Shown in pieces: positions 4,400-36,303 of a stretch of DNA of 64,000 nt. A program made the translations under genes and the position numbers. The notes under the pieces are model-generated. The model was not told where the DNA came from. It did not search any database and saw only the letters and a list, made by a program, of their open reading frames with translations. This stretch comes from Mycolicibacterium aubagnense (lineage in GTDB: Bacteria; Actinomycetota; Actinomycetes; Mycobacteriales; Mycobacteriaceae). The stretch spans positions 5,270,001-5,334,000 of the forward strand of contig NZ_AP022577.1 in NCBI RefSeq assembly GCF_010730955.1. The letters run 5' to 3'. The first letter of the stretch is position 1, and each line of letters begins with the position of its first letter.

Positions 4400-5275
4400 A
4401 TGACCAGCATTGATAGCGTCTCCACTCATGTTGGCCGCAGCGATCGCATATCGACCATATGTAGCGGATTTGGCGCAAGGGCTGGAAAGTGCGGGCGGCA
4501 AATGGTAGCGATTGCGCGGACCGCGGCTAAGCCGGTCACCTCATTGGGCGGATTCTTCGCCATGACGTTCGACACTTTCGTGCAAATGTTCCAGCCGCCG
4601 TTCGCATGGCATGAATACGTCACGCAGACATGGTTTGTCGCGCGTGTGTCGGTGCTGCCCGCATTGCTGCTCACGATGCCGTTCGCGGTGCTGCTGACAT
4701 TCACCTTCAACATTCTGCTGACCGAATTCGGCGCGGCCGACTTCTCCGGCACCGGCGCCGCTATCGGTACGGTGAATCAGATCGGCCCGATCGTCACGGT
4801 TCTTGTGGTGTCGGGCGCGGGCGCGACGGCGATGTGCGCCGACCTCGGGGCCCGGACCATCCGCGAAGAACTCGACGCGCTGCGCGTGATGGGTATCAAC
4901 CCCATCCGGTCCCTGGTGGTGCCGCGCGTGCTGGCCGCCACCACCGTGGCCCTGGCCCTGTCCGCCACGGTGATCCTCGTCGGCCTGACGGGCGCGTTCC
5001 TCTTCTGCACCACGGTTCAGCACGTCTCGCCAGGCGCGTTCGTCGGCGGCCTGAACCTCCTGACCGGACCAGGGGACATCATCGTCGCGCTCATCAAGGC
5101 GACGCTGTTCGGCATGGCAGCCGGCCTGATTGCTTGTTACAAGGGCACTTCCGTGCGCGGCGGTCCCGCGGGCGTCGGCAACGCGGTCAACGAGACGGTC
5201 GTGTTCACCTTCATGGTGCTGTTCGCCATCAACGTCATCGTGACAGCTGTCGCGATCCAGTACACGGTGTCGTGA
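4400..5275 (+). CDS. YrbE-family ABC permease (MlaE-like), mce locus A-type
   Basis: A 291-residue MlaE/YrbE permease, the inner-membrane channel component of an Mce lipid importer. Several hydrophobic segments are visible, with the family's conserved EELDALRVMGI stretch and a C-terminal GGPAGVGNAVN motif. ATG 4400 is supported by GGAGGT 9 bases upstream; the resulting N-terminus is about 50 residues longer than in typical YrbE proteins, and ATG 4502 is a shorter alternative. It pairs with the next gene; YrbEA and YrbEB usually form the permease dimer, energised by a shared ATPase (MceG) encoded elsewhere. Confidence 0.92.
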   Translation: MTSIDSVSTHVGRSDRISTICSGFGARAGKCGRQMVAIARTAAKPVTSLGGFFAMTFDTFVQMFQPPFAWHEYVTQTWFVARVSVLPALLLTMPFAVLLTFTFNILLTEFGAADFSGTGAAIGTVNQIGPIVTVLVVSGAGATAMCADLGARTIREELDALRVMGINPIRSLVVPRVLAATTVALALSATVILVGLTGAFLFCTTVQHVSPGAFVGGLNLLTGPGDIIVALIKATLFGMAAGLIACYKGTSVRGGPAGVGNAVNETVVFTFMVLFAINVIVTAVAIQYTVS

Positions 5276-5282
5276 GGAAGAG

Positions 5283-6137
5283 ATGACTGTCGACGTTCCG
5301 AGCCGCAGGTTCCCGCGGTTCGACAGACTCACCAAGAGTTCGATCGCCCGCTGGAACCGCGTCGGCGAACAGGGCGCCTTCTATTCACACACCATCGGGT
5401 CAATTCCCGATGCGGTGGTCAACTACCGCGCGGAACTGCTTCGGCTCATCGCCGCAACGGGTTTGGGCACCGGCGCGCTCGTCGTCGTCGGCGGCACCGT
5501 CGCGATCGTCGGTTTCTTGACGATGACCACCGGTGCCCTGGTGGCGATTCAGGGCTACAACCAGTTCTCGTCCGTCGGCTTCGAGGCCCTCACCGGTTTC
5601 GCCTCGGCGTTCCTCAATGTCCGGATGATCGTGCCGGCGACCACCGCGGTGGCGCTGTCGGCCACCATCGGCGCCGGTGCCACCGCGCAGATCGGCGCCA
5701 TGCGCATCAACGAGGAGATCGATGCGCTCGAGGTCATCGGCATTCGCAGCGTCACCTACCTCGCCTCCACGCGCGTGCTGGCCGCCGTGGTGGTGGTGAT
5801 CCCGCTGTACTGCGTCGCCGTGATGATGGCGTTCTTGGCCGCACGCATGGGCACCACCACCGTCTACGGGCAGGGCGCCGGCGTGTATGACCATTACTTC
5901 AACACGTTCCTCAATCCGAATGACCTGATCTGGTCGTTCGTCCAGTGCGTCGCTATCACCATCGTGATCATGTTGGTGCACACCTACTTCGGATTCGCCG
6001 CAGCCGGCGGTCCGGCCGGGGTCGGCGAGGCAGTGGGCCGTGCGGTGCGCTTGTCCATGGTGATCGCGGCCGTCGAGATCGTGTTCATCTCACTGGCCAT
6101 CTATGGCCAGTCCGGCAACTTCAACATGGCGGGTTAG
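5283..6137 (+). CDS. YrbE-family ABC permease, mce locus B-type
   Basis: A 284-residue second MlaE/YrbE permease. It keeps the conserved INEEIDALEVIGIRS stretch and a late GGPAGVGEAVG motif, between hydrophobic segments that should cross the membrane. It starts at ATG 5283, seven bases after the upstream stop, with a GGAAGAG ribosome site overlapping that gap. It is the expected partner of the upstream YrbE, and the first Mce protein follows after only three bases, so all three are in one transcript. Confidence 0.93.
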   Translation: MTVDVPSRRFPRFDRLTKSSIARWNRVGEQGAFYSHTIGSIPDAVVNYRAELLRLIAATGLGTGALVVVGGTVAIVGFLTMTTGALVAIQGYNQFSSVGFEALTGFASAFLNVRMIVPATTAVALSATIGAGATAQIGAMRINEEIDALEVIGIRSVTYLASTRVLAAVVVVIPLYCVAVMMAFLAARMGTTTVYGQGAGVYDHYFNTFLNPNDLIWSFVQCVAITIVIMLVHTYFGFAAAGGPAGVGEAVGRAVRLSMVIAAVEIVFISLAIYGQSGNFNMAG

Positions 6138-6140
6138 TCG

Positions 6141-7583
6141 GTGGAAGCGCGCAAGGGCGATCGGAAGATCTCGAACTCATGGTGGGCACTGATCCTGATA
6201 ACTGCCGTCGTGCTGTTCATGGTGGTGACCACGGTCATCTTCACCGGTGCGGCCAAATCCTATGTACCCGTGACGGTTATGGCCGACCGCGCGGGCCTGG
6301 TGCTGGAGACCAATGCCAAGGTGAAGATGCGCGGCGTGCTGGTGGGCCGAGTCAGCCGGATCGACGTGAACAACTCCGGAGCGACCCTGCAACTCAAGCT
6401 CGATCCGGACCAGGTCAAGTACATCCCCGCCAATATCGGTGCGCAGGTCAGTGTCACGACGGCGTTCGGCGCCAAGTTCGTCGACCTGGTGTATCCGCAG
6501 ACGCCCAGTAGCGCCCGCGTGGCCGCCGGTACGGTGCTGCATTCGGCACACACCACGACCGAGATCGATACGGTCTTCGAGAACATCGTCAACCTGCTGG
6601 ACATGGTGGATCCCGCCAAGCTGAACTCGGTGCTCAGTGCCGTCGCCGAAGGGGTCCGCGGCCAGGGCGAGCGCATGGGCCAGGCCACAACGGATCTCAA
6701 TCAGGTGCTGACGGCGCTGAACTCGCGCTCGGACACGATTCGTGACGACTGGCGGTCGTTCAAGGCCTTCAGCGACACCTATGGTGCGGCCGCCGACAAC
6801 ATCGTGAAGATTCTCAACGCCGCCAGCACCACGAGCAGCACCGTCACGGGCAAGGCGAAGGCGCTCGACAGTCTGCTGATGAACGTCATCGGATTCTCCG
6901 AGGCGGGAACCGATCTGCTGGGGCCGAACGGGGACAACCTCGTCGACGCGATCAACGGGCTGGAACCCACGACGAGTCTGTTGCTGAAGTACAGCCCCGG
7001 ATACACGTGCTGGTTGGAAGGCACCAAGAAGTTCCTCGACACCGGCGCCTGGGGTGTGTTCGGCGGGGCCGACGGCCGCTCGCTGATCCTCGACGCGACG
7101 CTGCTGCCGGGAAAGAACCCGTACGTGTTCCCCGACAACCTGCCGATCGTCGCGGCAAAGGGCGGGCCGGGCGGCCAGCCAGGCTGTGGTTCGCTGCCGG
7201 ATGTCGCCAAGAATTTCCCTGTGCGGCAACTGATCACGAACACCGGATGGGGGACCGGGCTGGATATTCGGCCGAACCCGGGCATCGGCAGCCCCTGCTG
7301 GGGACAGTGGTTCCAGAGCACGCGCGCGGTGCCACAAGCGCCCAGCATCCGGCAGTGCCTGCCCGGCCCGGCGCCTGGCCCGATCCCGTACCCCGGGGCG
7401 CCGCCGTATGGCGCAGCGCTGTACGGACCCGGCGGGGTGCCGCTGTGGCCGGGTGTGCCGCCCGCGCCGCCGAATCCCGCTGACGCACAACCGCAATCGG
7501 CGCCGGCGCCCGTAGAGGCCCCGCCGCTGCCGGCTGAAGCCCCCGCGGCGCCCGCGTTGCCGGCAGAAGCCGGCGGGAACTGA
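6141..7583 (+). CDS. MceA-type protein (first Mce subunit)
   Basis: A 480-residue Mce protein starting at GTG 6141. One N-terminal hydrophobic helix (about 14-37) is followed by the MCE/MlaD domain (about 40-120, with the ring-forming AKVKMRGVLVGRVSRI segment), a long helical region, and a Cys-containing tail that ends in a Pro/Ala-rich stretch of about 100 residues. Mce proteins assemble as hexamers that carry lipids across the mycobacterial envelope. The tail is probably flexible or binds other envelope parts. The cargo of this locus cannot be read from sequence. Confidence 0.92.
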   Translation: MEARKGDRKISNSWWALILITAVVLFMVVTTVIFTGAAKSYVPVTVMADRAGLVLETNAKVKMRGVLVGRVSRIDVNNSGATLQLKLDPDQVKYIPANIGAQVSVTTAFGAKFVDLVYPQTPSSARVAAGTVLHSAHTTTEIDTVFENIVNLLDMVDPAKLNSVLSAVAEGVRGQGERMGQATTDLNQVLTALNSRSDTIRDDWRSFKAFSDTYGAAADNIVKILNAASTTSSTVTGKAKALDSLLMNVIGFSEAGTDLLGPNGDNLVDAINGLEPTTSLLLKYSPGYTCWLEGTKKFLDTGAWGVFGGADGRSLILDATLLPGKNPYVFPDNLPIVAAKGGPGGQPGCGSLPDVAKNFPVRQLITNTGWGTGLDIRPNPGIGSPCWGQWFQSTRAVPQAPSIRQCLPGPAPGPIPYPGAPPYGAALYGPGGVPLWPGVPPAPPNPADAQPQSAPAPVEAPPLPAEAPAAPALPAEAGGN

Positions 7584-30598: not shown

Positions 30599-30706
30599 TT
30601 CGCGAAAAGTTGAGTGCCGCCGCAAGATAACCGTTTGGTCACCGTCTGATTGCCGGGTTGTCTCCCTCCCGGACCAAGCTTCGGCTCAGCTGCGCGCCGT
30701 GCGACC

Positions 30707-32248
30707 ATGTGTGCCATGTTGCGGGCGGGCAGTCGGGGACGACATTGTGCGGTAGGGGTCGTCGGATTGCTGGTGGCCATCAGCGCCGCGCCGGGATCGG
30801 TCGCGCACGCGGCCCCCGAATCCCTGCAGTCCTACTACGAACAGGCGCCGGCCTGGAGTAGTTGCGAACCGTTCATCGGTGACACCACCGACCTGCCGAC
30901 GGCCCGGTGCGCCAACGTCAGCGTCCCCGTCGACTACGCGAATCCGCAAGGGCCGCAAGCGAAGCTGGCCGTCATCCGGGTCCCGGCCTCGGGTCAGCGC
31001 CTGGGCGTGCTGTTGGTCAACCCCGGTGGTCCGGGCGCGTCGGCCGTCAGCACCGTCGCGGGCATGGGGGCTGTGCTGGCCGATACCGAGATCGGCCGCA
31101 GCTTCGATCTGGTCGGCTTCGATCCGCGCGGCGTGGGGCATTCGACACCGCAGCTGCGGTGCCGCAGCGACGCCGAATTCGACGCCACCCGCCGCGACCC
31201 GATGGTCGACTACAGTCCGGCCGGGGTGGCGCACATCGAGGCCGTCAACCGCCGCACGGCGCAGGACTGCCTGCAACAGATGGGCAGCAGCTTCCTGGCC
31301 AACGTCGGAACCGCCTCGGCGGCAAGGGATATGGACGTGGTGCGGGCCGCGCTCGGGGAGTCTCAGATCAACTATCTGGGCTTCTCCTACGGCACCGAGT
31401 TGGGGGCGGCCTACGCCGAACGATTCCCGGACCGCGTGCGGGCCATGGTGCTCGACGGCGCTGTCGACCCCAATGCCGATCCGGTGACCGAAAACCTGCT
31501 CCAATTGGCCGGATTCCAAACGGCTTTCAACGATTATGCGACGGACTGCGCGCAGTCGCCCGGCTGCCCGCTGGGCACCGACCCGACGCAGTTCGTCGCC
31601 CGGTACCAGCAGTTGGTCAATCCGCTCGTCGTGCGACCGGGTGCGACGTCCGATCCGCGTGGCCTGAGCTATTCCGATGCGATCACCGGCACCATCAACG
31701 CGCTGTACACGAAGAAGTACTGGAAGTTTCTGACCAGCGGGCTGCTCGGGTTGCAGCGTGGCGGCGATGCCGGCGACCTGCTGCTGCTCGCCGACGATTA
31801 CCAGCATCGTGATCAGAACGGGCGCTACGCGCCGCTGCAGGACGCGTTCACCGCGATCCGGTGTGTCGATGCGCCGTTCCCGACCGATTCCGCCACGTGG
31901 GCGGCCGCGGACCTGAAGGCGCGCCAACTCGCGCCGTTCATGAGCTACGGCCAGTACACCGGCTACGCGCCGCGCGATGTGTGCGCCACGTGGCCGGTGC
32001 CCGCGACGTCCCGTCCGCACCCGCCGGCATCGCCCGGCCCGGGCAAGGTCGTCGTCGTATCCACCACGCATGACCCGGCCACGCCGTACCAGGCCGGGGT
32101 GAACCTGGCACAGGAACTGGGCGCGTCGCTGATCAGTTACGAGGGCACCCAGCACACCGTGGTGTTCAACGGCGACCGGTGCGTCGACACGGCCGTGGTG
32201 GCCTTCCTGACCCAGTCGGTACTGCCGGCGGCGGGATTGCGCTGCTGA
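30707..32248 (+). CDS. Secreted serine hydrolase (CaeB type)
   Basis: A 513-residue TAP-like alpha/beta hydrolase orthologous to Rv2223c and a clear paralogue of the upstream gene. It has a signal peptide with predicted cleavage after SVAHA and lacks the lipobox of its partner. Nucleophile Ser227 lies in GFSYGT, and a GTQHTVVF histidine is near the end. ATG 30716 is a second possible start. It ends 19 bases before the convergent HsaA-like gene. Confidence 0.9.
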   Translation: MCAMLRAGSRGRHCAVGVVGLLVAISAAPGSVAHAAPESLQSYYEQAPAWSSCEPFIGDTTDLPTARCANVSVPVDYANPQGPQAKLAVIRVPASGQRLGVLLVNPGGPGASAVSTVAGMGAVLADTEIGRSFDLVGFDPRGVGHSTPQLRCRSDAEFDATRRDPMVDYSPAGVAHIEAVNRRTAQDCLQQMGSSFLANVGTASAARDMDVVRAALGESQINYLGFSYGTELGAAYAERFPDRVRAMVLDGAVDPNADPVTENLLQLAGFQTAFNDYATDCAQSPGCPLGTDPTQFVARYQQLVNPLVVRPGATSDPRGLSYSDAITGTINALYTKKYWKFLTSGLLGLQRGGDAGDLLLLADDYQHRDQNGRYAPLQDAFTAIRCVDAPFPTDSATWAAADLKARQLAPFMSYGQYTGYAPRDVCATWPVPATSRPHPPASPGPGKVVVVSTTHDPATPYQAGVNLAQELGASLISYEGTQHTVVFNGDRCVDTAVVAFLTQSVLPAAGLRC

Positions 32249-32267: not shown

Positions 32268-33470
32268 TCAGACCATGGTGTCTGCGGGCGGAAGACCGAA
32301 TTCGTTGTTGCCGAAGATCAGGTAGGCGCGCTCGGGCTCGTTGGCGGCGTGCACGCGGCCGGCGTGGGCGTCACGCCAGAACCGCTGCAGCGGGGTGCCG
32401 TTGGCCAGGGCGGTGGCGCCGGCGGCCTCGAAGAGCCGGTCGACCGACGCGATGGCGCGGCCGGTGGCGCGCACCTGGTCACGACGGGCGCGGGCCCGCA
32501 ACTCGAACGGGATCTCCTTGCCCGCGACCAGCAGGGCGTACTCGTCTCCGACATTGCCGATCAGCTGACGCCAGGCGGCGTCGATGTCGCTGGCCGCCTC
32601 GGCGATCCGGACCTTGGCGAACGGGTCGTCCTTGGACTTCTCACCGGCGAACGCGGCACGGACCCGCTTGCCCTGGTGCTCGACGTGCGCCTCGTAGGCG
32701 CCGTAGGCCATCCCGACGATCGGCGCCGAGATGGTGGTGGGGTGCACGGTGCCCCACGGCATCTTGTACACCGGCGCGGTGTTGGTCAGGTAGCCGCCGG
32801 CGGTGCCGTCGTTCATCGACTTGTAGGACAGGAAGCGGTGCCGCGGCACGAACACGTCCTTGACCACGATCGTGTTGCTGCCGGTGCCACGCAGGCCGAC
32901 CACGTTCCAGTCATCGACGATGCGGTAGTCGGAGCGCGGAATCAGGAAGCTACCGAAGTCGACCGGGCGGCCATCCTTCATCGCCGGACCACCGACGAAG
33001 GCCCACGTGGCATGCGCGGAGCCGGACGACCATTTCCACTCGCCGGACACCAGATAACCCCCGTCGACGACCGTTGCCGCACCCATCGGGGCGTAGGAGG
33101 AGGAGATCCGGACCGAGGTGTCCTCGCCCCAGACATCCTCCTGCGCCTGCTGATCGAACAGCGCCAGGTGCCAGTTGTGCACGGCGAGCACGCCCGCCAC
33201 CCAACCGGTCGAGCCGCACGCGGAGGCCAGCCGGCGCACCGCCTCGAAGTAGCTGACCGGGTCGCACTGCAGGCCGCCCCACTGCTCAGGCTGTAGCAGC
33301 TTGAAGAAACCGGCGTCTTCGAGTGCCATCAACGATTCACCAGGGATCGCGCGGATGTCCTCGGTGAGCTGGGCACGCTCACGCAGTAGCGGTAACACCT
33401 CGTCCACGCCCGCCAGAACGGTTTCGGTGTCACGAACCGCCTGGGTCGAACCTTGCTGAAGAGTCGTCAC
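32268..33470 (-). CDS. HsaA-like flavin-dependent monooxygenase (steroid ring A type)
   Basis: A 400-residue protein of the acyl-CoA dehydrogenase-like hydroxylase group. It resembles HsaA very closely along its length, for example in LLQPEQWGGLQCDP, CGSTGWVAG, FVPRHRFLSYK and RFWRDAHAGRVHAANE. HsaA hydroxylates 3-HSA, the phenolic steroid of cholesterol breakdown, using reduced flavin from HsaB. No HsaB is in the window. ATG 33470 overlaps the stop of the KshA-like gene (ATGA). Steroid degradation is inferred from family and neighbour. Confidence 0.9.
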   Translation of the reverse strand: MTTLQQGSTQAVRDTETVLAGVDEVLPLLRERAQLTEDIRAIPGESLMALEDAGFFKLLQPEQWGGLQCDPVSYFEAVRRLASACGSTGWVAGVLAVHNWHLALFDQQAQEDVWGEDTSVRISSSYAPMGAATVVDGGYLVSGEWKWSSGSAHATWAFVGGPAMKDGRPVDFGSFLIPRSDYRIVDDWNVVGLRGTGSNTIVVKDVFVPRHRFLSYKSMNDGTAGGYLTNTAPVYKMPWGTVHPTTISAPIVGMAYGAYEAHVEHQGKRVRAAFAGEKSKDDPFAKVRIAEAASDIDAAWRQLIGNVGDEYALLVAGKEIPFELRARARRDQVRATGRAIASVDRLFEAAGATALANGTPLQRFWRDAHAGRVHAANEPERAYLIFGNNEFGLPPADTMV

Positions 33471-34660
33471 TGAACTGCCTTCCCGATGCTGGGCTGATGG
33501 AGACCGACGTCGGCCGCGGCCGAGGTCGGTGTTTCTCGTTGACGGAGGTTCTCCGCCACTTCATTGCGCCAATATTTGTTGGCCGCAGTGGTATCCACTT
33601 CGTATTCGAAGCGGTCGGTCATGTCGGAGGTGACGTCGGCGGCGTCGACGTAGAACTGCTCATACCACCGGCGCAGCTGGTAGACCGGGCCGTCCTCCTC
33701 GACCAGCAGCGGATTCTCGATACGGGTCTTGTTCTTCCAGATCTCCACGTCCTGGAGGAACCCCTTGCTGACTCCGTCGGTGAACGCGCGCAGCAGCATT
33801 TCTGTCGCCTCATCGGTGAGGCCTTGCGGCCGGCGCACCATGATGCCCCATTGCAGGACAAAGGAATCCGAGGTGACCGGATAGTGGCAGTTGACCAGAA
33901 TCGCTTCCACCGCGTATCCGCTGTAGCTGTTGTGCAGCCGGTTGATCATGAACGACGGTCCGAAGTAGGACGCCTCGGAGTCGAGGATCTGTTCGCCCGC
34001 GTAATGCGATCCGCCCAGGTTGACATCGGGCCTGCCGATCGTCTGTAGGTACTGGGACGCGACGTGACCTTCGAACACGTTCTTGAAGTAGGTCGGGAAT
34101 CCGAAATGGACGTAGTAGAAGTGCGCCATGTCGACGATGTTGTCGATGATCTCTCGACAGTTCGAGCCGATGAGCTCAGTGCGCCAGGACCACCCCGTCC
34201 AGCCCTCGTCGCGAAACTCGGAAATGTCCGGGATGTCCAGATGCGACGACGGCGTAGCGCCCTCGGGGTCGTGCCAGACGAAGAGGAGACCGGCACGAAC
34301 GCGTGACAGCCACACGCGGGTACGTGCGAGCCGGGGCGGACGTTTGGCATAGGGCACCTGCGCGCACCGGCCGTTGCCCGCCCACCGCCAGTCGTGGAAC
34401 GGACACGCGACGGCATCGTCTTTGACCTCACCTTGAGACAGGTCGCCGCCGAGATGGCGGCAGTACGCGTCGAGCACATGCACGTCGCCGTGACTGTCGG
34501 CGAAGACCACGAGCTTCGTCCCGAAAGCACTGATCGAATGCGGCTTGCCGTCCGCGAACTCCGACAGCAGTCCCAGGCAGTGCCAGCCGCGGGCAAACCG
34601 AGTCGGGGGCGTCCCGACATCGATCTCACGTACTCCGGCGTCAGTCGAATTTCTGGTCAA
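33467..34660 (-). CDS. KshA-like Rieske oxygenase (3-ketosteroid 9-alpha-hydroxylase type)
   Basis: About 397 residues. The Rieske iron-sulfur ligands C67, H69, C86 and H89 lie in CRHLGG and CPFHDW, matching the numbering of M. tuberculosis KshA if translation starts at TTG 34660. The mononuclear iron site is in DNIVDMAHFYYVHFG. GTG 34669 is in frame, but its first base touches the GGAG of the strong GGAGGTGA site, which is well spaced (8 bases) for the TTG. KshA opens steroid ring B with reductase KshB, not present here. A KstR-like operator lies upstream. Confidence 0.9.
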   Translation of the reverse strand: MTRNSTDAGVREIDVGTPPTRFARGWHCLGLLSEFADGKPHSISAFGTKLVVFADSHGDVHVLDAYCRHLGGDLSQGEVKDDAVACPFHDWRWAGNGRCAQVPYAKRPPRLARTRVWLSRVRAGLLFVWHDPEGATPSSHLDIPDISEFRDEGWTGWSWRTELIGSNCREIIDNIVDMAHFYYVHFGFPTYFKNVFEGHVASQYLQTIGRPDVNLGGSHYAGEQILDSEASYFGPSFMINRLHNSYSGYAVEAILVNCHYPVTSDSFVLQWGIMVRRPQGLTDEATEMLLRAFTDGVSKGFLQDVEIWKNKTRIENPLLVEEDGPVYQLRRWYEQFYVDAADVTSDMTDRFEYEVDTTAANKYWRNEVAENLRQRETPTSAAADVGLHQPSIGKAVQ

Positions 34661-34959
34661 TTCCGTCACCTCCAGGCACTTTGCGGCTCACTAGAACACG
34701 TTCCTTAATTGAACGAGTCGTCACAGTAAGGGCAGGCGGAAGCAATGAACTAGGGACTAATGGCTCTATTTGAGGACCGTGCGCCTTCGCCGTTCTCCGC
34801 GATCCCTATCCGCCCTCGGGTCCACACCGTCCAGGGGCAACCATCCAGGAGCCGACCCGACGGACGCCGTCCCGGGAACTCCGCAGGATCCAGTCGATCC
34901 ATCCCGAACAGAGTCCGCTTGGTAACACAGATTTAACAGCTGCTGCCTACGCTGCGGAC
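34661..34959. other. Intergenic region between the kshA-like gene and glnA2
   Basis: About 300 bases with no gene. It holds the ribosome site and KstR-like operator of the steroid gene pair on the left and a -10-like TACGCT (34948-34953) just before glnA2 on the right. The middle (34740-34920) has no recognised element. Confidence 0.6.
34692..34705. promoter_or_regulatory. KstR-like operator upstream of the kshA-hsaA pair
   Basis: TAGAAC-AC-GTTCCT. The known KstR pattern is TNNAACNNGTTNNA; seven of the eight fixed positions match, and only the last base (T for A) differs. It starts 32 bases upstream of the TTG start. KstR represses cholesterol-breakdown genes until a steroid CoA ester binds it, which fits the products of the two genes. 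Confidence 0.75.
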
Positions 34960-36303
34960 ATGGATCGGCAGAAGGAATTCGTGCTGCGCACGCTGGAAGA
35001 ACGCGACATTCGCTTTGTCCGGCTGTGGTTCACCGACGTGCTCGGATACCTCAAGTCGGTGGCGATCGCGCCGGCCGAGCTGGAAGGCGCCTTCGAAGAG
35101 GGCATCGGCTTCGACGGTTCCGCGATCGAGGGCTTCGCCCGCGTCTCCGAGGCGGACATGGTGGCCCGCCCCGATCCGTCCACTTTCCAGGTGCTGCCGT
35201 GGACCACCAAGAGCGCCGGCAAGCACTACTCGGCCCGCATGTTCTGCGATATCACCATGCCGGACGGTTCGCCGTCCTGGGCCGACTCACGGCATGTGCT
35301 GCGTCGCCAGCTGGCCAAGGCCGGCGATCTGGGCTTCTCCTGCTACGTGCACCCGGAGATCGAGTTCTTCCTACTCGAACCCGGCCCGAACGACGGCTCG
35401 GTGCCGGTACCGGCCGACAACAGCGGCTACTTCGACCAGGCTGTGCACGACTCGGCGCCGAACTTCCGCCGGCACGCCATCGAGGCGCTCGAGTCGATGG
35501 GCATCTCGGTGGAGTTCAGCCACCACGAGGGTGCACCCGGCCAGCAGGAGATCGACCTGCGTTACGCCGACGCCCTGTCCATGGCCGACAACGTGATGAC
35601 GTTCCGGTACCTGGTCAAGGAAGTCGCGATCAACGAGGGCGTGCGGGCCACGTTCATGCCCAAGCCGTTCAGCCAGTACCCGGGCTCGGCGATGCACACC
35701 CACATGAGCCTGTTCGAGGGCGACACCAACGCCTTCCACAGCGCCGAGGATCCGCTGCAGCTCTCCGGCGTCGCCAAGTCGTTCATCGCCGGCATCCTGA
35801 CGCACGCCAGCGAGATCAGCGCCGTCACCAACCAGTGGGTGAACTCCTACAAGCGGCTGGTGCACGGCGGCGAGGCGCCGACCGCTGCCTCGTGGGGTGC
35901 GGCCAACCGCTCTGCCCTGGTCCGGGTCCCGATGTACACACCGCGCAAGGCGTCGTCGCGGCGTATCGAGGTCCGCAGCCCCGACTCGGCATGCAACCCG
36001 TACTTGGCCTTCGCGGTGCTGCTGGCCGCCGGTCTGCGCGGCATCGAGAAGGGCTACGAGCTCGGGCCGCAGGCCGAGGACAACGTCTGGAACCTGACGC
36101 CCGAGGAACGCATCGCGATGGGCTACAAGGAGCTGCCGTCGAGCCTGGGTGTGGCGCTTGGCGAGATGGAGAAGTCCGAACTCGTGGCCGAGGCCTTGGG
36201 AGAGCACGTGTTCGACTACTTCCTGCGCAACAAGCGCACCGAGTGGGAGAACTACCGCAGCCACGTGACACCGTTCGAGCTCAAGGAATACCTGTCGCTG
36301 TAA
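34960..36303 (+). CDS. glnA2: Glutamine synthetase type I, GlnA2
   Basis: A 447-residue ATP-dependent ligase for glutamate and ammonia, orthologous to Rv2222c. Visible signatures are GFDGSAIEGF, the metal/glutamate segment HPEIEFFLLEPG, the KPFSQYPGSAMHTHMS region, and R-rich SSRRIEVRSPDSACNPY. At the place of the adenylylation Tyr of GlnA1 it has DNVWNLTP instead, so it is probably not controlled by GlnE in that way. TACGCT ends 6 bases before the ATG, suggesting a leaderless mRNA. Confidence 0.95.
   Translation: MDRQKEFVLRTLEERDIRFVRLWFTDVLGYLKSVAIAPAELEGAFEEGIGFDGSAIEGFARVSEADMVARPDPSTFQVLPWTTKSAGKHYSARMFCDITMPDGSPSWADSRHVLRRQLAKAGDLGFSCYVHPEIEFFLLEPGPNDGSVPVPADNSGYFDQAVHDSAPNFRRHAIEALESMGISVEFSHHEGAPGQQEIDLRYADALSMADNVMTFRYLVKEVAINEGVRATFMPKPFSQYPGSAMHTHMSLFEGDTNAFHSAEDPLQLSGVAKSFIAGILTHASEISAVTNQWVNSYKRLVHGGEAPTAASWGAANRSALVRVPMYTPRKASSRRIEVRSPDSACNPYLAFAVLLAAGLRGIEKGYELGPQAEDNVWNLTPEERIAMGYKELPSSLGVALGEMEKSELVAEALGEHVFDYFLRNKRTEWENYRSHVTPFELKEYLSL

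Follow-up and report, generated by a model that had tools for sequence, protein, structure and literature searches.

A duplicate kshA-hsaA oxygenase pair in Mycolicibacterium aubagnense is preceded by a predicted KstR operator and a DosR-box-like element

Within a 64,000-nucleotide stretch of the Mycolicibacterium aubagnense genome (NZ_AP022577.1; here, the window), we identified a pair of genes, which we call kshA2 and hsaA2, encoding second copies of two steroid oxygenase subunits. Upstream of the pair lie a KstR-type operator and a palindrome that resembles the binding box of the dormancy regulator DosR. KshA and HsaA are ring-opening oxygenases, and CYP125, whose gene accompanies the pair in many relatives, is the side-chain C26 oxygenase; all three consume O2. 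We put at roughly 70% the probability that kshA2-hsaA2 is a duplicate oxygenase set released by steroids through KstR and boosted at low oxygen through DosR, with its reductases encoded elsewhere. The features on which this reading turns are as follows, in window coordinates.

32268..33470, minus strand: hsaA2, paralog of the 3-HSA monooxygenase oxygenase subunit (NF045629; PDB 3afe; ratio of nonsynonymous to synonymous substitution rates, dN/dS)
33467..34660, minus strand: kshA2, paralog of the 3-ketosteroid 9alpha-hydroxylase oxygenase subunit (PDB 2zyl; Pfam KshA_C; clade; dN/dS)
34692..34705, unstranded: KstR-type operator TAGAACACGTTCCT, immediately past the predicted start of transcription (matrix score 19.0; conserved in relatives)
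34723..34728, minus strand: predicted -10 hexamer TACTGT, of the TANNNT type (read from the sequence)
34750..34769, unstranded: DosR-box-like palindrome CTAGGGACTAATGGCTCTAT (own dosR-region matrix; published consensus; 14 of 14 loci)

Both open reading frames (ORFs) are intact, and comparison with solved structures and family models supports the resemblance to KshA and HsaA that an initial annotation of the window had noted. KshA2 scores 617.5 bits against the solved KshA structures 2zyl/4qck and has both family domains at full length (Pfam Rieske, 75.2 bits; KshA_C, 292 bits), while HsaA2 matches PDB 3afe at 745.5 bits and the HsaA equivalog model NF045629 over its full length at 671.8 bits (cutoff, 450). 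In the alignment to 2zyl, KshA2 retains the cofactor-binding blocks CRHLGG, CPFHDW, DMAHFYYVH, and FLQDVEIW, including ligand-type residues that we take to bind the [2Fe-2S] cluster and the mononuclear iron. With these blocks, KshA2 is predicted to be a KshA-type oxygenase, putatively carrying out 9alpha-hydroxylation with KshB. The two genes do overlap by 4 bases (33467-33470), as first described, although the overlap reads GTGA rather than ATGA because the hsaA2 start codon is GTG. The longest kshA2 ORF begins with GTG at 34669; judged by eye, the start is more probably the TTG at 34660, which lies behind GGAGG.

The 6.32-Mb genome (G000) encodes canonical copies of both genes elsewhere, kshA at C1:2635637 (68% identical to the window copy) and hsaA at C1:2726859 (87% identical), and kshA2 and hsaA2 are therefore extra copies. 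This answers the check for other genomic copies that the initial annotation had proposed: the window pair is not the only one. More distant kshA-like genes, 61% and 58% identical, are also present. The canonical hsaA lies among hsaC, hsaB (HsaB by NF045630), and a reductase gene that we term KshB-like from family and position, its product having met no KshB model. Using tblastn (E ≤ 1e-5), we found no homologs of the KshB-like reductase, HsaB, or HsaC in the window or in the 13 related loci scanned. The reductases must therefore be encoded elsewhere, as had been supposed from the absence of KshB and HsaB. Separately, G000:C1:5651332-5665694 (L139 and L140) contains KshA-like (58%), HsaA-like (41%), and HsaC-like (46%) genes and is perhaps a further ring-degradation cluster.

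To score the operator, we used a matrix derived from the KstR sites of PMC1995591 (Table 3; n = 47). The window operator scores 19.0, which tops the window (the runner-up reaches 10.6) and lies toward the lower end of the range covered by the table sites themselves (18.1 to 32.0). Among 313,763 18-mers from 14 partly overlapping stretches of the same genome, it ranks 13th; the 12 higher scores all fall within stretches around the genome's own kshA, hsaA, or CYP125 homologs, and two of these stretches also had pattern matches. Compared with the KstR palindrome TnnAACnnGTTnnA, the operator agrees at 7 of 8 fixed bases, the outermost one deviating. The initial annotation had called a KstR-like operator off at its last base; this departure is tolerated in at least one other site, as it also occurs in the Rv3531c site ACTAGAACGTGTTCCTGTTT, which is listed as positive by electrophoretic mobility shift assay in the table of PMC1995591. 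The genome's canonical kshA, hsaA, and cyp125 promoters also carry the KstR palindrome, and 13 of the 14 kshA2 loci described below have a KstR score of at least 17. We therefore refer to TAGAACACGTTCCT as a predicted KstR operator governing kshA2-hsaA2, with putative derepression.

Alignment of nine upstream regions revealed two conserved blocks, one being the KstR-type operator and the other, further upstream, reading AGGGCCATTAGTCCCTA or a close variant. By the TANNNT rule for -10 elements (PMC6448022), transcription should start at about 34716, downstream of TACTGT. Measured center to center, the DosR-like box and the KstR operator are 61 bp apart, and the center of the box precedes this predicted start by about 43 bp, which is DosR activator distance from the predicted promoter.

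Usp genes led us to the genome's own dormancy region, where dosR (its product scoring 376 bits against DevR 3c3w) and dosS adjoin a Usp gene. A DosR matrix was built from 11 putative boxes picked by eye among 24 intergenic core matches near this dosR (leave-one-out scores, 8.5 to 15.9). The window box scores 18.0 with this matrix, against 10.3 for the next best position in the window, and is first of 238,776 20-mers in 12 stretches of the genome outside the dosR region, 3 of which had been selected for core presence and which count some 20-mers twice. Orthologous kshA2 boxes score up to 23.0. The published stringent consensus GGGACTTNNGNCCCT (PMC6448022) is matched at 10 of 12 fixed positions by the window box and at 10 or 11 by the other 17 module boxes. 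A genome-wide scan with GGGNCNNWNGTCCC was discarded as regulon evidence, as it gave 25 matches versus 45 for the reversed control, and the scan alone revealed no regulon. The initial annotation had described a regulated mini-module; its KstR-type operator stands, but the DosR-box-like element and the CYP125 partner had been missed.

To place the pair among its relatives, we examined a genus sample of 198 genomes, with at most 9 candidates scored in each, and the best 80 loci from a scan of named genomes. KshA proteins of the kshA2 clade were found in 9 of the 198 sampled genomes, including that of the window, and the named genomes added at least 5 kshA2 loci (M. frederiksbergense, M. houstonense, M. 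chelonae, M. interjectum, and a bog metagenome-assembled genome, or MAG). The 14 KshA2 proteins group together with support of 99/96 in a tree of 50 of 110 rows, and thus form the distinct paralog clade for which a KshA tree had been suggested. An hsaA gene lies beside or near kshA2 in all loci except L133 of G194 (13 of 14), and a CYP125-type P450 gene lies by kshA2 in 9 of the 14, either divergent from it (L020, L128, and L129) or in an hsaA-cyp125 order facing it (L021, L022, L130, L131, L132, and L134). The module P450 of G124 matches the CYP125 structures 4apy and 5dqn at 806 to 810 bits. Among 27 chosen genomes, close hsaA copies (E ≤ 1e-150) number two in 8 and one in the other 19, and the 8 are the sampled carriers of the KshA2 clade except G194. 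Duplication of hsaC within the module was ruled out, as each of the 12 genomes examined has a single close hsaC; an hsaC paralog at 46 to 50% occurs in 9 of the 12, including G012, which is without kshA2. Also ruled out as a module member was G185 (L106/L135): its KshA, 73% identical, is not part of the clade, and its locus is without a box. Two short contigs labeled as Bifidobacterium breve MAGs (L071 and L085) encode KshA 68% identical to that of the window and are probably misbinned or mistitled.

Calling a box at a DosR-matrix score of at least 13, we found one at all 14 kshA2 loci, and its distance from the KstR site is 61 bp in 7 of 7 rapid-grower-type loci and 63 to 64 bp in 7 of 7 others. 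Every module kshA upstream region that was scored has the box (13 of 13; L102 was too short for this count, and its longer version, L131, scores 16.2), compared with 4 of 95 other kshA upstream regions (L053, L091, L093, and L096; one of 96 was too short), 1 of 30 other hsaA upstream regions (L091, the same intergenic box), and 0 of 25 for other cyp125 genes. Dinucleotide-shuffled upstream regions (n = 1,950) reached 13 in 0.3% of cases and 18 never, and 300 permuted matrices matched at most 3 of the 13 upstream regions. Across eleven loci of 8.6 to 20 kb (L020, L021, L022, and L127 to L134), the only places scoring at least 13 are kshA2 and, for four of the loci, hsaA. By contrast, 3 further matches are present in each of L018 and L019. 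A dosR ortholog is present in 17 of 18 genomes searched, Rhodococcus spelaei being the exception, and in 15 of 15 searched genomes with kshA2 (14) or its near relative (G185).

The box also recurs within the module, at 4 of 13 hsaA upstream regions. The 7 rapid-grower module hsaA genes directly follow kshA2, each lacking its own KstR site and box. Where hsaA has a separate promoter, the KstR site and the DosR-like box lie exactly 42 bp apart in 4 of 6 loci (L021, L130, L131, and L132). Gene order and spacing here differ from those of the kshA2 promoter, and a plain copy of that promoter is therefore an unlikely source of the pairing. In M. frederiksbergense, which has two dosR copies, the pair is about 32 kb away from one of them, set among other DosR-box-like sites and with an aa3 oxidase subunit I gene nearby, and M. 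houstonense has the same oxidase type and several DosR-like boxes. In L018 (1342-3084) and L019 (1142-2866), aa3-type cytochrome oxidase subunit I genes lie near DosR-like boxes, a few kilobases from kshA2-hsaA2.

Similar arrangements were observed at other kshA genes. Four Mycolicibacter kshA loci outside the KshA2 set (L062, L083, L093, and L096) have a box scoring 12.7 to 16.7, located 52 to 53 bp from a KstR site and about 95 bp upstream of the kshA match, and dosR orthologs are present in the two of these genomes that were checked (L093 and L096). Upstream of kshA in L053 and L054, a KstR site is separated by 63 bp, the spacing of slow-grower kshA2, from a DosR-like box (scores of 16.8 and 11.0, respectively). 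In Rhodococcus spelaei (L091), divergent hsaA (4627-5787) and kshA (6001-7134) genes are accompanied by a DosR-like palindrome 61 bp from a KstR site; a search of the genome for a DosR ortholog at E ≤ 1e-60 found none.

Selection on kshA2 and hsaA2 appears to be purifying. In comparisons with relatives, dN/dS is 0.09 to 0.14 for kshA2 (4 comparisons) and 0.16 to 0.21 for hsaA2 (3 comparisons), the latter rising to 0.30 against the genome's own canonical hsaA. The history of hsaA2 appears to be composite, as seen in the following segment.

32268..32871 (boundary approximate), minus strand: 3' half of hsaA2, near-identical to canonical hsaA (sliding comparison)

At the DNA level, hsaA2 is 97 to 100% identical to canonical hsaA (L013) in its 3' half and mostly 58 to 69% identical in its 5' half, where two stretches reach 83 to 86%; the C-half proteins are identical. 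The confinement of near identity to the 3' half, together with the identical C-half proteins, makes gene conversion likely, and the 3' half is probably a recent tract of conversion with the resident hsaA. In the C-half HsaA tree, the G020 copy likewise pairs with its resident hsaA (99/77).

A single shared origin of hsaA2 and cyp125 with kshA2 was rejected, given the CYP125 and HsaA trees versus the one KshA clade. In the CYP125 tree, the rapid-grower module copies group with canonical ones and are split from the slow-grower module copies by a 100/99 branch, giving two clades. Whole-length module HsaA sequences form three supported clades joined by only moderately supported branches, and the well-supported branches of the half-length trees require one or more changes in the N half and two or more in the C half; the HsaA signal is confused by gene conversion. 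CYP125 was likely recruited separately from kshA2, and HsaA may have been. Residue 244 of KshA2 is R in 7 of 7 rapid-grower-type copies and W in 7 of 7 slow-type and 89 of 89 other copies, in a comparison that left out 7 distant rows. In HsaA2, just 2 positions are invariant across the 7 rapid-grower-type copies and at the same time unlike at least 90% of 26 canonical copies.

The pair sits between caeB and glnA2, as first reported, with the following flanks.

30650..32248, plus strand: caeB-like esterase, left flank of the insertion
34960..36303, plus strand: glnA2, right flank; the upstream block common to relatives is retained

A caeB or caeA homolog directly abuts glnA2 in 13 of the 16 same-genus relatives in which glnA2 was found; of the other three, two have about 1.1 to 1.3 kb of other DNA between caeB and glnA2, and one has no caeB within 1.5 kb. 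Because caeB or caeA abuts glnA2 in relatives without the pair, the window carries an insertion, of about 2.7 kb. Within the glnA2 stretch examined, none of the 16 relatives has kshA2 or hsaA2, and the relatives' pairs adjoin other genes, so the island is not tied to the glnA2 neighborhood in which it was first described. In three relatives (L245, L248, and L254), the DNA ahead of glnA2 departs from the usual arrangement, making the site a possible insertion hotspot. The annotated neighbors of the pair are caeB and glnA2 in the window, an amidase gene and an aa3 oxidase gene in L018, and a wax ester/triacylglycerol synthase gene in L131. That these neighbors differ between loci suggests that the kshA2 module was relocated or transferred. 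A plasmid origin was not backed: the best plasmid-borne KshA, from Nocardia farcinica, is 63% identical, and no close plasmid copy was present in the collection searched.

How do these genes relate to systems already described? KshA2 shares the Rieske and KshA_C domains and the cofactor blocks with the KshA structures 2zyl/4qck and 4qdc/4qdf, presumably from M. tuberculosis and R. rhodochrous, respectively, yet it falls in a separate clade and has W244R in the rapid-grower type. HsaA2 is a full-length equivalog match to HsaA (NF045629; 3afe and 2rfq) that differs in its divergent N half, its C half being identical to that of the resident HsaA. The module P450 of G124 resembles the CYP125 structures 4apy and 5dqn, which we take to be from M. 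smegmatis, whereas no CYP125 gene lies beside the window pair. Like promoters of the mycobacterial KstR regulon (PMC1995591), the window promoter places the palindrome TnnAACnnGTTnnA at a steroid oxygenase gene; it differs in its added DosR-like element at fixed spacing and in the deviant outermost base seen also at Rv3531c. The likeness to the DosR (DevR) dormancy regulon lies in a GGGAC...GTCCC-type box upstream of a TANNNT -10 element, in a genome with dosR and dosS, while the targets in the window are steroid oxygenases. A term search of the main text of a paper on the M. avium DosR regulon (PMC11876180) returned no word beginning oxygenase, P450, or cholesterol, and titles and abstract openings in the open-licence literature searched contained no link between DosR and kshA, hsaA, cyp125, or steroids.

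Since the products belong to O2-consuming steps, we interpret the module as a backup set that would allow sterols to be used when oxygen is low. At its varied chromosomal places, it would serve as a spare copy of two O2-consuming ring-opening steps of cholesterol breakdown, to which CYP125 is added in most relatives. KstR, bound just downstream of the predicted start, would block transcription until a steroid-derived acyl-CoA is present, and phosphorylated DosR would bind the box overlapping the -35 region and activate transcription when O2 is low or NO is present. KshA2 and HsaA2 would then take electrons from KshB and HsaB encoded elsewhere and may supplement the canonical oxygenases, or stand in for them, once O2 becomes limiting for the pathway.

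Several observations weigh against this reading. The boxes used to train the DosR matrix were chosen by eye and are themselves putative, and the consensus GGGACTTNNGNCCCT fits better (11 of 12) inside a called gene of the window and equally well (10) at another place. The window box has GAG for GGG in one half, a mismatch that makes it weaker than the orthologous rapid-grower boxes, and slow-grower kshA2 boxes are imperfect as well (CAC for CCC; scores of 13 to 18). In M. houstonense (L019), the KstR site is degraded (13.4) beside a strong DosR-like box (22.6). The pair lacks a neighboring cyp125 in 5 of 14 loci, the window among them; the 3 of 7 module cyp125 upstream regions with a box all share the kshA2 intergenic region; and the separate hsaA promoters of L022 and L134 have a KstR site and no box. 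Boxes also occur at 4 of the 95 other kshA copies, including the one in Rhodococcus spelaei, where no DosR ortholog was found. The hsaC product is likewise O2 dependent, and hsaC is not duplicated (12 genomes). Finally, an extra oxygenase helps under hypoxia only if O2 is not fully absent.

The strongest alternative, which we consider unlikely, is that this is a plain KstR-controlled paralog pair with an altered substrate range, such as bile acids or sterols with other side chains, and that the palindrome is a mere core-promoter feature. The KstR-type operator and fixed KshA2 substitutions such as R at position 244 are in keeping with it, as are the KshA paralogs of M. neoaurum with measured substrate profiles (PMC6593523). 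According to the same source, the transcriptome of Mycobacterium sp. VKM Ac-1817D includes five kshA homologs, two of them phytosterol induced, the second by 25-fold; its kshA_2 may or may not belong to the KshA2 clade. A mere core-promoter feature would fit poorly with a palindrome that matches DosR boxes, keeps a fixed spacing at all 14 loci, and appears again at 4 of the 6 separate hsaA promoters, and an altered substrate fits poorly with an HsaA2 that has only 2 fixed positions and a window hsaA2 of which half is nearly canonical hsaA. The DosR-box-like element and the partner CYP125 shift the likely purpose from a new substrate to low oxygen; the different substrate range suggested by the initial annotation may exist but is not needed.

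More improbable still is that a regulator other than DosR, of the two-component or LuxR type, acts at the palindrome, which would make the second input something other than oxygen. The deviating slow-grower boxes (GTCAC half) and the similar box in Rhodococcus spelaei, with no DosR ortholog at E ≤ 1e-60, would suit such a regulator, but the match to the genome's own dosR-region boxes and to the published DosR consensus, along with the further DosR-like boxes around the pair in L018 and L019, argues for DosR. That the duplicate is selfish or decaying and has no separate function, as the patchy occurrence (9 of 198 sampled genomes) and varied chromosomal places might suggest, is very improbable given intact ORFs, dN/dS of 0.09 to 0.21 in 7 comparisons, and a conserved promoter.

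Returning to the low-oxygen reading, its broader form is tentative and, on balance, doubtful: an oxygen-sensing sterol-oxygenase cassette may have been assembled more than once from KshA2 of one ancestry and separately recruited HsaA and CYP125 under KstR/DosR-gated promoters, its high-affinity isozymes sustaining sterol oxidation where soil, biofilm, or host tissue is microaerobic, in the way that alternative terminal oxidases sustain respiration.

Actinobacterial cholesterol breakdown uses several O2 per sterol, and many of the settings in which it takes place are oxygen poor. Our sequence comparisons suggest that some mycobacteria keep a separate set of O2-using cholesterol enzymes for times of oxygen shortage. 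If true, a sterol repressor and a hypoxia regulator acting at one promoter of O2-dependent steps would directly link two regulons, both well studied, in mycobacterial metabolism and persistence. This bears on how the sterol pathway keeps going in oxygen-poor settings, and it could supply steroid biotechnology with oxygenases that work at low O2.

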